Source: a virus
Direction: 5' to 3' (one strand)
Length of the DNA: 31,015 nucleotides
Virus record (IMG/VR): IMGVR_UViG_3300001589_000088
Span: 1 to 31,015 of that record
Both the position numbers and the translations under genes were made by a program. The notes under the pieces are model-generated. The model was given only the letters and a program-made list of their open reading frames with translations. It was not told where the DNA came from and did no database searches. Below are positions 24,840 to 30,978 of this stretch, piece by piece. Position 1 is the first letter of the stretch; the number at the start of each line of letters is the position of its first letter.

Positions 24840-24885
24840 TCGTATCTAGCCGATAAACATTTTTATAAAAATTGTTAAAAATTTT

Positions 24886-24915
24886 TTGGTAGGTAATTCC
24901 AATTTTATATCTTTG
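24886..24915 (+). promoter_or_regulatory. Strong Bacteroidota-type promoter of the replication module
   Basis: A -33 TTG (24886-24888, within TTTTTTG) and a -7 TATCTTTG (24908-24915, matching TAnnTTTG) are separated by exactly 19 bp. A transcript would begin at about 24921, giving a leader of about 26 nt before the ATG at 24947. The first promoter of the early gene cluster is expected here. The same spacing is seen at 30752-30781. Confidence 0.75.
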
Positions 24916-24946: not shown

Positions 24947-25477
24947 ATGGGAAAGATGAAAGAAATGCATATAGAAATGCAAGAACAAGAACAAAATCAG
25001 AATACTAATCAATTAAATAATCAAATGGCAAAAAAAACAATGCAGGAAAAATTAAAGAAGCAACCAGAAGTAGTTGTTGAAACAAGAACAGAGGCTTTAA
25101 GAAGGCTTTATAAAGAGAATGGCTTAACTGCTGAAGATGTGTTTAAAGACCCTAGAGGCTTTGTAATCATCACTAGAACAGGTATTGATAAGATTTCTGC
25201 TAAGAATGGAATCACTATTGGATATGAAGTGATAACTATGGATATTGAAAAAAGCACTTGTGTATTAAAAGCAGCAGGTACTATGAAGGTTGGTAGTGAA
25301 GTTAGAAATGTAATGAGTTTTGGTGAAGCATCTCCTGCTAACTTAAATGGTGGTGGTAAGAAATTTCCAGTATCAATGGCTGAGAAAAGAGCAATGAGTA
25401 GAGTGGTTCTTAAACTAACAGGATTCTATGAGCAAGGAGTATTTGGTCAGGATGAGATTGTAGATGAGCCTAAGTAA
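24947..25477 (+). CDS. Putative ssDNA-annealing or recombination protein
   Basis: A 176-residue protein. Residues 1-45 are Gln/Asn/Lys-rich and low in complexity. The body (about 50-165) contains ITRTGIDKISAKNGITIGYEV, a strand series, MSFGEASPANLNGG, and KFPVSMAEKRAMSRVVLKLTG, ending in GQDE. The last segments resemble the C-terminal signature of phage proteins that I associate with the Rad52/Sak-like annealing families, but this is a tentative memory-based assignment. It is the first gene behind the strong promoter at 24886, as recombination proteins often are. Alternative start at an internal ATG (about 25025) is possible. It overlaps the next gene by 14 bases. Confidence 0.4.
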   Translation: MGKMKEMHIEMQEQEQNQNTNQLNNQMAKKTMQEKLKKQPEVVVETRTEALRRLYKENGLTAEDVFKDPRGFVIITRTGIDKISAKNGITIGYEVITMDIEKSTCVLKAAGTMKVGSEVRNVMSFGEASPANLNGGGKKFPVSMAEKRAMSRVVLKLTGFYEQGVFGQDEIVDEPK

Positions 25478-26165: not shown

Positions 26166-26642
26166 ATGAAAAGAAAACAATTAAAATTTAACGATAGTTA
26201 TAACAATATAATTATTGATGAATTATCAGATATTTACAAAGTAAGTAAAGATCAAATATTTTCAGGAAGCAGAAAGAGAAACATTATATCAGCAAAAAGA
26301 ATGTATATTTTTGTGCTTAGAGAAGTTTTTGCATTAACTTTAATGAAGATAGGGGAGGTTACAAATTTACATCACGCAACAATAATATATCATGCAAGAC
26401 AATTTAAGTTTTTCTTTAAAACATATTCTGAAGATTCTAAATCATTTAAAAGAGTAGAAGGTGTAATTGACATTGAAACTTATGAAAGAATAGAAGGGAG
26501 ATTAATGCAGGTCGATGTGGATGAAGAAATAATAAAACTAGAAGATATATTAAGCAGAATAAAGGATTCATTAACTAAATTATATAAAATTAAAAAACAA
26601 AAAAATGACAGACAAGAAAGAGAAGGTCTACTTACCAAGTAG
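26166..26642 (+). CDS. DnaA domain IV-like replication initiator fragment
   Basis: A 158-residue protein. Residues 15-80 resemble the DNA-binding domain IV of DnaA (Bac_DnaA_C type): VSKDQIFSGSRKRNIISAKR, then a helix pair, then the DnaA-signature-like NLHHATIIYHAR (67-78). The ATPase domains of DnaA are missing, and residues 80-158 form a charged helical tail. A stand-alone domain IV could mark the phage origin and recruit the host replisome. It lies in the replication cluster, followed by an SSB-like gene that starts inside it. Candidate binding repeats lie at 30575-30670. The residue match is clear but short. Confidence 0.65.
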   Translation: MKRKQLKFNDSYNNIIIDELSDIYKVSKDQIFSGSRKRNIISAKRMYIFVLREVFALTLMKIGEVTNLHHATIIYHARQFKFFFKTYSEDSKSFKRVEGVIDIETYERIEGRLMQVDVDEEIIKLEDILSRIKDSLTKLYKIKKQKNDRQEREGLLTK

Positions 26643-26903: not shown

Positions 26904-26931
26904 AAGGAGGGGTTGAAATATACTCCTCCTT
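26904..26931 (+). terminator. Hairpin between the SSB-like and initiator genes
   Basis: A 9-bp stem (AAGGAGGGG at 26904-26912 with CTCCTCCTT at 26923-26931, one G-U pair) with a 10-nt loop, followed by ATTTTAAAA. It resembles the terminator behind the capsid gene in its GGAGG/CCTCC core. A weak terminator, or an RNA element regulating the start at 26952. Confidence 0.5.
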
Positions 26932-26951
26932 ATTTTAAAAACTATAACACA

Positions 26952-27575
26952 ATGAAAGAACAACCAAACTTCTTCTCTGTCATACCTGCAGGTGTAAGGT
27001 ATGATAAAGATTTAACTCCAAACGCTAAACTTCTTTATGCTGAAATAACATCTCTACTTTCAATGGGTGGTGCTTGTTATGCTTCTAATAAATACTTCTC
27101 AGATTTATATGGAAAGAACAAAGTAACTATTTCCAGATGGATTAAAGAATTAAAGGAAAGAGGCTATATATCAGTTAGTTATACATATAAGGAAGGTAGT
27201 AACGAAATTGCTAATAGGTATATACAAATTTGTTTAGACCCCCTTAGCAAAAATGACAAAGGGGTATTAACAAAAATGCTAAAGAGTAGTAATACTAGTA
27301 TTAATAATAAGAGTATTAATAATAAGGTAAATTTTAAAAAACCAACAATAATTGAAGTTAAAGAATATTGTACTGAAAGAAAAAATAATGTAGATGCAGA
27401 AACATTCTGTGATTTTTATGAAAGTAAAGGTTGGCAGATAGGTAAAGAAAAAATGAAGAGCTGGAAGGCTTGTGTAAGAACTTGGGAAAAAAGTAGTAGA
27501 AACAATAATACTAATGATAGAACTACATCACATAGACATACTAAGGGTAAGGATTATGGAGATGGTTCTTTTTAA
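26952..27575 (+). CDS. Winged-helix replication initiator or organiser
   Basis: A 207-residue protein from ATG 26952. Residues 1-90 contain FFSVIPAGVRYDKDLTPNAKLLYAEI (split over 5-35) and then NKVTISRWIKELKERGYI, the pattern of helix-turn-helix initiator or replisome-organiser proteins. Residues 120-190 have a DnaD-like helix set with WKACVRTWEK. It may bind the origin and the helicase loader encoded at 28012. A TTG at 26913 lies in frame inside the hairpin at 26904, but ATG 26952 has the A-rich context seen at real starts here. Confidence 0.6.
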   Translation: MKEQPNFFSVIPAGVRYDKDLTPNAKLLYAEITSLLSMGGACYASNKYFSDLYGKNKVTISRWIKELKERGYISVSYTYKEGSNEIANRYIQICLDPLSKNDKGVLTKMLKSSNTSINNKSINNKVNFKKPTIIEVKEYCTERKNNVDAETFCDFYESKGWQIGKEKMKSWKACVRTWEKSSRNNNTNDRTTSHRHTKGKDYGDGSF

Positions 27576-28011: not shown

Positions 28012-28587
28012 ATGAGAACAATAGAAGATACTTTTAAAATAGAAAACTTCCTACAACCTAAGATGTATAACAGATACAGGTTAGGAACTAAAGAGGATAT
28101 TAAAGAAATGTTTGTTAAAGCGTTTAAGCATTACGATAGAACTATTGATGTATATGATCATTTAGAATCTTACGATAAAATAATTGATTGGTTAGTTGAT
28201 ACTAAAGGTAGAGGTTTAATGCTAATGGGTGATTGTGGATTAGGTAAGTCTACTATTCTTAACTATGTTATTCCTGCAATCTTTAGAACAAAAACAAATA
28301 AGTTGCTTACTAGCATACCAGCTAAAGAACTTGGTCAGATAGAAAGGAGTGATGCTTCTTTTATTATTATTGATGATTTAGGGACTGAGAGTATTAAGAA
28401 TGATTATGGTACTAAGATAGATGCAGTTGCTGATGCTATATCTTATGCTGAAGATAGTTCAAAGACTTTACTTATAACTACTAATTTAGATGCAGAAGAT
28501 TTATCAAAAAGATATGATGAGAGAACTTTAGATAGGTTAAGAAAGTGTAAAGTGGTGGTTATCAGGGGTAAAAGTTTTAGAAAGTAA
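28012..28587 (+). CDS. DnaC-like helicase loader, AAA+ ATPase
   Basis: A 191-residue AAA+ ATPase of the DnaC/IstB type. Walker A is GDCGLGKST at 73-81 and Walker B FIIIDDLG at 117-124. A sensor-type TTN (156-158) and a box VII Arg in RYDERTLDRL (about 167-176) complete the pattern. It would load the host replicative helicase at the phage origin. It lies three bases after the preceding gene, in one operon with the winged-helix initiator and the DnaA-like protein. No helicase gene is seen in the window, so a host helicase is the likely partner. Confidence 0.8.
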   Translation: MRTIEDTFKIENFLQPKMYNRYRLGTKEDIKEMFVKAFKHYDRTIDVYDHLESYDKIIDWLVDTKGRGLMLMGDCGLGKSTILNYVIPAIFRTKTNKLLTSIPAKELGQIERSDASFIIIDDLGTESIKNDYGTKIDAVADAISYAEDSSKTLLITTNLDAEDLSKRYDERTLDRLRKCKVVVIRGKSFRK

Positions 28588-29909: not shown

Positions 29910-30185
29910 ATGCCAAAGATTAGAAAGATAAAAGTAGGTGATAGGAAAGACTCAAGAGGTGGAGGTTACTCTAGAAGAAAGTTTACTGTTGCTGAAGCTG
30001 ATGCTATAAGACTAGAGTTTAATACTGCTACTGATAAGATAACTATATCTGCTATGGCTAGGAAGTATGAAGTATCACAACCATTAATGTATCAACTACT
30101 TAAAGGAACTACCTATACTGATAAGGGAGGTAGGGGGACTAGGGGGATAGGGGGTACAGGGGGTGTAGGGGGTAAGGGGGTATAG
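29910..30185 (+). CDS. HTH-like protein with Gly-rich tail
   Basis: A 91-residue basic protein. Residues 20-65 contain FTVAEADAIRLEFN, then ISAMARKYEVSQPLMYQLLKG, a helix-turn-helix-like pattern. Residues 70-91 are Gly-rich (GGRGTRGIGGTGG), because the end of the gene is a G-tract repeat (30133-30180). The repeat may have been selected as DNA or RNA rather than for protein. It could be a small regulator. It stops four bases before the nuclease gene. Confidence 0.5.
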   Translation: MPKIRKIKVGDRKDSRGGGYSRRKFTVAEADAIRLEFNTATDKITISAMARKYEVSQPLMYQLLKGTTYTDKGGRGTRGIGGTGGVGGKGV

Positions 30186-30187
30186 GG
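30125..30187 (+). repeat. G-quadruplex-type G-tract repeat
   Basis: Six runs of five G (30133-30137, 30142-30146, 30150-30154, 30159-30163, 30168-30172, 30176-30180), flanked by GGG at 30125 and 30185, are separated by 3-4 nt loops. Any four neighbouring runs fit the G3+N1-7 quadruplex rule. It lies at the end of the gene at 29910 and just before the nuclease gene. In this AT-rich sequence such a cluster is very unlikely by chance. Confidence 0.9.
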
Positions 30188-30188
30188 T

Positions 30189-30542
30189 ATGGCAATGAAG
30201 AAAGAAGCTAGAGTACAATCATCATTCTGCACCTATATACAATTTACCTATCCTAAAGTTAGATACTGTGCATCTCTAGGTGGTATAAGAACCTCAATGA
30301 CTCAAGCTATTATGGCTAAGAAAACAGGATATGTTAAAGGGTTTCCTGATATGCAGATACTAAAGGTCAATAGCGAGTACGCAGGACTCTTCTTAGAGAT
30401 TAAAGCCGATAAGACTTGCTATGCATCCAAAGAACAAAAACAATGGGTAGCTGACCTCAATGAAGCAGGTTACTATGCTAAAGTAGTTAAAGGACTTGAA
30501 GAATGTATGGATGTCCTTGATTGGTATATGAAAATAAAATAA
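30189..30542 (+). CDS. VRR-NUC domain nuclease
   Basis: A 117-residue protein with the VRR-NUC pattern: GFPDMQI with Asp54 (51-57), LFLEIKA with Glu70 and Lys72, and a downstream EQKQW (82-86) and AGYYAKVV segment. These are the core acidic and Lys residues of this nuclease fold, which acts on DNA junctions or flaps. It may process recombination or replication intermediates. The start lies three bases after the preceding stop, in a G-rich tract. A stand-alone VRR-NUC is common in phages. Confidence 0.8.
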   Translation: MAMKKEARVQSSFCTYIQFTYPKVRYCASLGGIRTSMTQAIMAKKTGYVKGFPDMQILKVNSEYAGLFLEIKADKTCYASKEQKQWVADLNEAGYYAKVVKGLEECMDVLDWYMKIK

Positions 30543-30548
30543 TTTTCT

Positions 30549-30572
30549 AAAAAACTTTTACAAAAAACTTTT
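30549..30572 (+). repeat. Direct repeat of AAAAAACTTTT, two copies
   Basis: Two copies of the 11-bp AAAAAACTTTT lie at 30549-30559 and 30562-30572. They immediately precede the TGAAACTG repeat array and may be part of an origin or control region. Confidence 0.55.
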
Positions 30573-30574
30573 CT

Positions 30575-30628
30575 TGAAACTGTTTCTGCCCTGAAACTGC
30601 CCTGAAACTGCTGAAACTGCTGAAACTG
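30575..30628 (+). repeat. TGAAACTG iteron-like array, five copies
   Basis: The octamer TGAAACTG occurs at 30575, 30592, 30603, 30612 and 30621 (spacings of 17, 11, 9 and 9 bases), embedded in CCCTGAAACTGC-type units. Short direct repeats like these are typical of protein-binding iterons at origins. The likely partner is unknown; the DnaA-like protein at 26166 or the winged-helix initiator at 26952 are candidates. Confidence 0.75.
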
Positions 30629-30640
30629 CCAGACATCTCC

Positions 30641-30670
30641 TATGTGCGTGTATGCGTGTGTATGTGCGTT
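30641..30670 (+). repeat. Three tandem 10-bp units, TATGTGCGTG type
   Basis: Three consecutive 10-base units, TATGTGCGTG, TATGCGTGTG and TATGTGCGTT, lie on one face of the helix (10-bp period). They lie between the TGAAACTG array and an AT-rich stretch, and add to the case for a control or origin region. Confidence 0.65.
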
Positions 30671-30751
30671 CTATATACTGCAATCTCTTGATTTCTAGTT
30701 ATTTAGAATCATTATAAATTAGCATATTTATAAATATTTTTAACAATTTAT
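30671..30751. other. AT-rich stretch, possible DNA-unwinding element
   Basis: This stretch is very AT-rich (for example ATATTTATAAATATTTTTAA) and lies between the repeats and the promoter at 30752. Together with the repeats it looks like an origin layout: binding sites followed by an easily melted region. No DnaA box of the TTATNCACA type is seen inside it. Confidence 0.35.
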
Positions 30752-30781
30752 TTGCTATTGTGCAAAAGTGTTATATATTTG
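30752..30781 (+). promoter_or_regulatory. Strong Bacteroidota-type promoter
   Basis: -33 TTG (30752-30754) and -7 TATATTTG (30774-30781, TAnnTTTG) with 19 bp between them, the same spacing as at 24886-24915. The start would be at about 30788, leading into the small gene at 30820. It marks a second early operon that continues beyond the window. Confidence 0.75.
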
Positions 30782-30819
30782 CAATGTAAATAATTACAAA
30801 TAATTAAATAAATAAAACT

Positions 30820-30978
30820 ATGCAAAAACTAAACTCTAACCTTTTAAAAAAAGTAAGTAGTAAAAAAACAAGCATAAAAGATAATATTTTATTCACTATC
30901 GTATCATTTGCTGCCCTCTATGGCTTAATCTATGCACTTTGCACAATCATTACATTAATTGAATTTATAACACTTTAA
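30820..30978 (+). CDS. Small membrane protein, 52 residues
   Basis: A 52-residue protein with a basic N-terminus (LLKKVSSKKTSIKD) and a long hydrophobic segment at about 22-52 (starting NILFTIVSFAALYGLIYAL), perhaps one or two membrane helices. It is the first gene behind the promoter at 30752, so it is probably an early, host-directed protein. No family is recognised. Confidence 0.6.
   Translation: MQKLNSNLLKKVSSKKTSIKDNILFTIVSFAALYGLIYALCTIITLIEFITL

Follow-up and report, generated by a model that had tools for sequence, protein, structure and literature searches.

A strand-polar element of G-runs and octamer repeats at the border of a hypervariable block in a family of uncultured phages

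What is the role of a short, repeat-rich and gene-free stretch that separates the early genes of a phage from a block of changing gene content? The DNA analysed here (the window) is one whole virus record of 31,015 bases, the sole contig of its assembly, and carries all of its main genes on the + strand. Near its right-hand end, 277 bp (30543–30819) are free of genes, as an earlier note on this DNA had reported; that note took the stretch to be a candidate replication origin, with iterons beside an AT-rich element, and an early control region. The repeats that it listed are all present—two copies of AAAAAACTTTT, five of TGAAACTG, three 10-mers, an AT-rich stretch, and a promoter—and it is their function that we consider here.

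A search of deposited phages with the window DNA gave no match at the nucleotide level, and the closest cultured matches to its TerL protein are in phages of Flavobacteriia (38–46% identity). The window promoters are of the Bacteroidota type, and the phage family that carries the array of TGAAACTG probably has Bacteroidota hosts and is probably marine. Many relatives are held in IMG/VR. In those that cover the whole of it, the block reaching from the VRR-NUC gene to the small terminase gene (terS) spans a few kb, and for this reason we place both ends of the window at the flanks of a missing piece of this block. At the left end, about 750 bp upstream of the small terminase gene (1–757) lack a long open reading frame (orf), and a terminator-like CCTCTATTATTAGGGG-T7 lies within this orf-poor stretch at ~90–113.

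The early replication genes are preceded by a promoter-like site of their own, TTTG-N19-TATCTTTG (24885–24915, + strand). The three replication proteins that the earlier note had recognized are borne out by profile matches: a DnaA domain IV-like protein (26166–26642, +; PF08299, 3.6e-11), a winged-helix replication initiator (26913–27575, +; PF13730, 1.1e-15; PHROG replication initiation, 8e-26), and a DnaC-like helicase loader (28012–28587, +; PHROG 3277, 6.4e-20). The orf at 24947–25477 encodes a conserved early protein with a C-terminal motif resembling ...AEKRAMSRVVLKLTGFYEQG; it was considered as a single-strand annealing protein and set aside, as the fold search yielded weak dsRBD-like matches and nothing else. 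Toward the right are a small HTH protein (29910–30185, +), whose alignment shows a nearly invariant basic arm, DRKDxRGGGYxxRKF, and a VRR-NUC protein (30189–30542, +; PF08774, 8.6e-05, slightly below the cut-off; PHROG 5702, Holliday junction resolvase, 1.7e-12), which is the final gene of the conserved early block. A counterpart of the HTH protein is present at 30 of the 36 distinct arrays that have at least 7 kb of left flank. Its predicted fold has three helices at low confidence, and the structure model is too weak to class it by fold as a known DNA binder.

Immediately behind the VRR-NUC gene, five copies of TGAAACTG lie within 54 bp (30575–30628, +), starting at 30575, 30592, 30603, 30612 and 30621 and thus spaced by 17, 11, 9 and 9. 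When the whole window was shuffled 60 times (first order), four-letter octamers reached at most three copies per 60 bp, against the five real ones. The two copies of AAAAAACTTTT (30549 and 30562; 30549–30572, +) sit past the VRR-NUC stop and ahead of the array; this word is frequent in close relatives and variable in others, and a third copy, absent from the earlier note, is found at 1176.

The array occurs throughout the family. We collected loci by the VRR-NUC protein alone and kept the distinct ones extending at least 250 bp past the gene; all 63 have two to seven copies of (T/C)GAAACTG behind it, and reverse copies number zero. Fetching by TerL gives a similar picture, with an array at 18 of 20 loci that have at least 5.5 kb left of TerL. 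Arrays occur also in distant phages (VRR-NUC identity 36–61%, TerL 65–76%), where the DUF3310, HTH and VRR-NUC genes come in three different orders and the array usually stands behind whichever of them is last. Copy number is maintained across relatives and spacing varies, the intervals in 95 distinct noncoding arrays being mostly 11, 12 and 9, with some of 13 and of 17–18. Some phages have extra octamer arrays inside genes, translated in frame as ETA repeats, either in a small Cys-rich protein (loci L168, L181, L207, L220, L225 and similar) or at the N-terminus of DUF3310 proteins (L215, L242, L256). Octamer arrays found in bacterial genomes are mostly simple tandem or protein-coding repeats, and no phage-like array was identified among them. 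The variability of copy number and spacing is what one would expect if a tandem repeat had simply grown neutrally, with no function; we regard this as highly improbable, as the octamer is preserved exactly in relatives with TerL identity as low as 65% and amid unrelated flanking sequence, is present in 63 of 63 loci and never reversed, and in the rest of the genome exceeds what codon usage predicts.

The array does not stand alone. A cluster of six GGGGG runs lies to its left (30133–30180, +), inside the 3′ end of the HTH orf, and at least three runs of G4 or longer are found within 1.5 kb left of the array at 90 of 96 distinct loci. Clusters of at least four G-runs are scarce elsewhere in these loci, and there is one C-run cluster in the set. 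The gap from G-cluster to array has medians of 379–411 bp in most gene orders (range 360–469 bp) and of 500 bp in one order (range 491–618 bp). In the commonest gene order the gap consists mostly of the VRR-NUC gene, such that a constrained distance becomes evident only from the rarer orders. Always left of the array, the cluster usually occupies the 3′ end of the HTH gene, with the exceptions of L134 and L159, where it is inside the VRR-NUC gene, L213 and L225, where it is at the start of another orf, and L246, where no long reading frame covers it. Positions 30133–30628 therefore constitute a two-part cis-element that is conserved and strand-polar, with a G-run cluster on the left and the TGAAACTG array some 400 bp further right. 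The element ends the conserved early block and faces the hypervariable block ahead of the small terminase gene, and our confidence that a real, conserved cis-element is present here is high.

Is this element a replication origin? Such an origin could operate through binding of the initiator or the DnaA-like protein and melting of the AT-rich DNA, or through an R-loop at the G-runs that exposes single-stranded octamers for helicase loading. The early block encodes an initiator, a DnaA-IV-like protein and a loader, and the repeats adjoin AT-rich DNA, as in iteron and lambda-O origins; the G-runs are on the non-template strand 400–600 bp upstream, and an origin of the R-loop type fits both these runs and the polarity. 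The initiators of the family, however, point elsewhere. They comprise winged-helix types and types with a dissimilar N-terminal domain (no BLAST similarity), and the octamer is identical in all, including those of the second kind (clusters 4, 6 and 9). Because the array persists when the DNA-binding domain of the initiator is swapped for an unrelated one, the octamers are not the iterons of the initiator; neither change with the initiator nor helically phased spacing, the two marks of iterons that we looked for, is seen. We also found no DnaA boxes near the array, and the DnaC-like loader is detected in only 11 of the 36 array loci with sufficient flank, being absent or replaced in many. The earlier note had proposed looking for an origin peak in the skew: four-fold-site skew is positive in the structural genes, near zero in the early genes and negative in the variable block, and has no clear origin signature. 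The genes of the variable block are probably recent acquisitions.

A rival candidate for the origin lies inside the initiator gene. Two 18-bp direct repeats 23 bp apart are followed there by two copies of the AT-rich AGTATTAATAATAAG (27244–27326, +), a layout that we take to be that of lambda O. In six winged-helix clusters the best in-gene repeats are always 23–24 bp apart and differ in sequence by type, tracking the type of initiator in the way that the array does not; synonymous shuffles equal them in 2–7 of 60 cases, which is of modest significance. Judged by sequence pattern, these repeats are the better candidate for an origin, with a modest signal, and they stand apart from the octamers, which are indifferent to initiator type, unphased, and dispersed over the genome in a manner that an origin leaves unexplained. 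The iteron origin with a DUE thus finds no support, and the AT-rich stretch assigned to it is part of an exchangeable module that lies to the right of the array and carries the promoter. The array is probably not the replication origin of the initiator, and an origin at this element by either route seems to us rather unlikely.

The octamer is also dispersed over the genome. Outside the array, the window has seven copies of TGAAACTG on the + strand (6090, 6870, 14757, 22102, 22742, 24028 and 29397), compared with 1.6 expected from synonymous codon shuffling, and none on the − strand. When all octamers were ranked by the same kind of shuffle in 363 nonredundant orfs of the family, array-bearing orfs having been removed, TGAAACTG came first of 65,536 in the coding strands (32 observed, 9.1 expected). 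As a yardstick, the identical test on 100 kb of E. coli puts Chi 21st and the Chi complement 2nd. Four of six subgroups show a strong excess, and the TerL-75% set shows none. It varies along the genome: the ratio of observed to expected copies is 5.7 and 5.6 across the 10 kb left of the array and 2.1–2.6 in the structural genes past TerL, and the variable block has no copies (1.1 expected). The reverse complement shows no enrichment in the family regions scored. The octamer is, in short, over-represented genome-wide on one strand, and the earlier note had itself named abundance across the genome as evidence against its origin proposal.

Bacteroidota chromosomes gave no comparable signal. Five Flavobacteriales genomes, which may not be of the host's lineage, show no enrichment of the word (z −1.0 to 0.8). 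A search for the host by octamer density among 198 Bacteroidota genomes gave no strong outlier; of two of the densest that were checked (z 3.9 and 1.8), just one is enriched, and weakly.

All genes of these phages share one direction, and hence the polarity of the octamer in DNA is inseparable here from mRNA sense. The octamer might accordingly be an RNA-level element, with UGAAACUG in early mRNAs as the target that a phage protein binds or cuts and with the 3′ end of the early transcript marked by the array. Its restriction to the coding sense and its greatest strength in the early block are as this would predict; on the other hand, several distant phages (L179, L204, L219, L246 and L256) have what looks like an intrinsic terminator, a hairpin with a T-run, immediately before the array, no unusual RNA fold was seen, and no Rfam family matched. 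Terminator-like hairpins right before the array favour its acting as DNA rather than RNA, and we consider an RNA role quite unlikely. In L163, L181, L195 and L225 the first octamer is within a terminator-like hairpin that closes the early block.

Compared with an iteron origin, a site for DNA processing is the better fit, be it Chi-like, for packaging or of another kind. As a packaging site of the pac type, the octamers would be bound by the small terminase, and packaging would proceed to the right, across the accessory block and on into the terminase genes. The pac site of P1 consists of several short, polar and loosely spaced repeats that can sit inside genes, and P1 terminase binds the hexamer repeats of that site. 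The window array is likewise made of several short, polar, loosely spaced repeats; it is near-universal in the family, terS follows it at 2–5 kb whatever the gene order, and contigs continue from the array to TerL, indicating that ends are not fixed at cos-like sites. Pac sites, however, are usually within or adjoining terS, whereas this array is 2–5 kb away; contig ends are scattered over the variable block with none piling up at the array; and packaging offers no reason for the excess of the octamer in coding sequence, which, unlike the repeats of P1 pac, extends over the genome. Packaging is for us an unlikely explanation.

A Chi-like role is the best fit, on account of the dispersed copies, the variable spacing and the polarity. 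Known Chi words include GCTGGTGG of E. coli, GAAGCGG of S. aureus and GCGCGT of L. lactis. Like these, TGAAACTG is a short, non-palindromic, polar word with an excess in coding sequence, one that is picked up by the same codon-shuffle test, and its excess in the phage family goes beyond codon usage and base composition, as is asked of a Chi word. Among lambdoid phages, those that lack RecBCD inhibitors are known to have an excess of Chi (PMC3784561). The window octamer differs from Chi in being one-stranded, densely arrayed and partnered by G-runs, and most candidate host chromosomes tested are not enriched for it. We found no described Chi motif for Bacteroidota in the literature.

The Chi-like reading may be put as follows. 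TGAAACTG would act as DNA, a word that a DNA-processing machine reads one way; single copies would be scattered over the conserved genome on its coding strand, and an array would have built up where this genome meets the exchangeable right-hand block. Degradation or recombination arriving from the right would be halted or redirected at the array, and the halt could shield the conserved genes and leave the accessory block free to be exchanged. The reader of the octamer is probably encoded by the phage, as the octamer is not enriched in most of the Bacteroidota genomes tested, and the HTH protein at 29910 is a candidate for it. That the array works as a Chi-type polar DNA site at the border of conserved and exchangeable DNA is a proposal we make tentatively, and the Chi model does not account for the G-run cluster. 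A broader possibility, which we hold with similar caution, is that the locus represents a new class of cis-element, in which a G-run cluster prone to form a G-quadruplex or R-loop and a polar octamer array some 400–600 bp away would let a phage factor direct DNA processing at the hypervariable border. This reading takes in the retention of the element regardless of gene order or overlapped gene, the genome-wide enrichment of the octamer, and a phage-encoded reader.

Right of the array the sequence modules vary between relatives. The module in the window starts with three 10-bp units of alternating purines and pyrimidines (30641, 30651 and 30661; 30641–30670, +), and GT/CG-alternating tracts of differing sequence are found at a comparable place in many relatives, making a Z-DNA-prone element possible. 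The tracts between array and promoter often end in GCGTTCTAT. The DNA that follows (30676–30820) is 83% A+T and includes a promoter, TTTG-N19-TATATTTG (30751–30781, +), which fits the Bacteroidota consensus TTTG-N17-23-TAnnTTTG and is conserved in position in relatives. This promoter serves the accessory genes, the first of which in the window is a 52-aa orf (30820–30978, +) with one hydrophobic stretch; among 86 distinct first orfs past the array there are 39 groups. The proposal of an early control region therefore holds in part: the region is cis-acting, no relative open to inspection from the VRR-NUC side lacks the array, and a promoter does follow, but that promoter is not one for the early replication genes.

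Between the array and the promoter is a Fur-box-like palindrome, ATTTAGAATCATTATAAAT (30701–30719), with one mismatch to ATTTAGAATNATTCTAAAT. It matches the Flavobacteriales Fur consensus, and its location at the promoter exceeds chance: allowing up to two mismatches, the palindrome occurs at 36 of 99 loci within 900 bp right of the VRR-NUC gene, compared with five occurrences in 2.33 Mb elsewhere. At these 36 loci it is mostly 44 or 54–55 bp from the −7 element, distances about one helical turn apart. Every copy of the palindrome in the Flavobacteriaceae chromosomes that we inspected is intergenic, with hemA and genes for TonB receptors and cytochrome c among its neighbours. Riemerella anatipestifer has ATTTAGAATTATTCTAAAT as its Fur box, and in gel shifts Fur is reported to bind selected promoters with putative boxes (PMC5609570). 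The phage palindrome resembles this box and differs in its placement, being mostly 44 or 54–55 bp upstream of the −7 element and not overlapping it. The accessory phage genes are probably under host iron control through this putative Fur box. Promoter and Fur box form a unit of the accessory genes, separate from the two-part element.

Few sequence signals in this widespread group of uncultured phages are as strong as this one octamer, whose array marks where their genomes exchange accessory genes. The putative Fur box would link the expression of those genes to the iron state of the host. A Chi-like octamer would be the first word of this kind linked to Bacteroidota phages; an array that serves as packaging site or origin would open a way into the life cycle of phages that are known from metagenomes alone.
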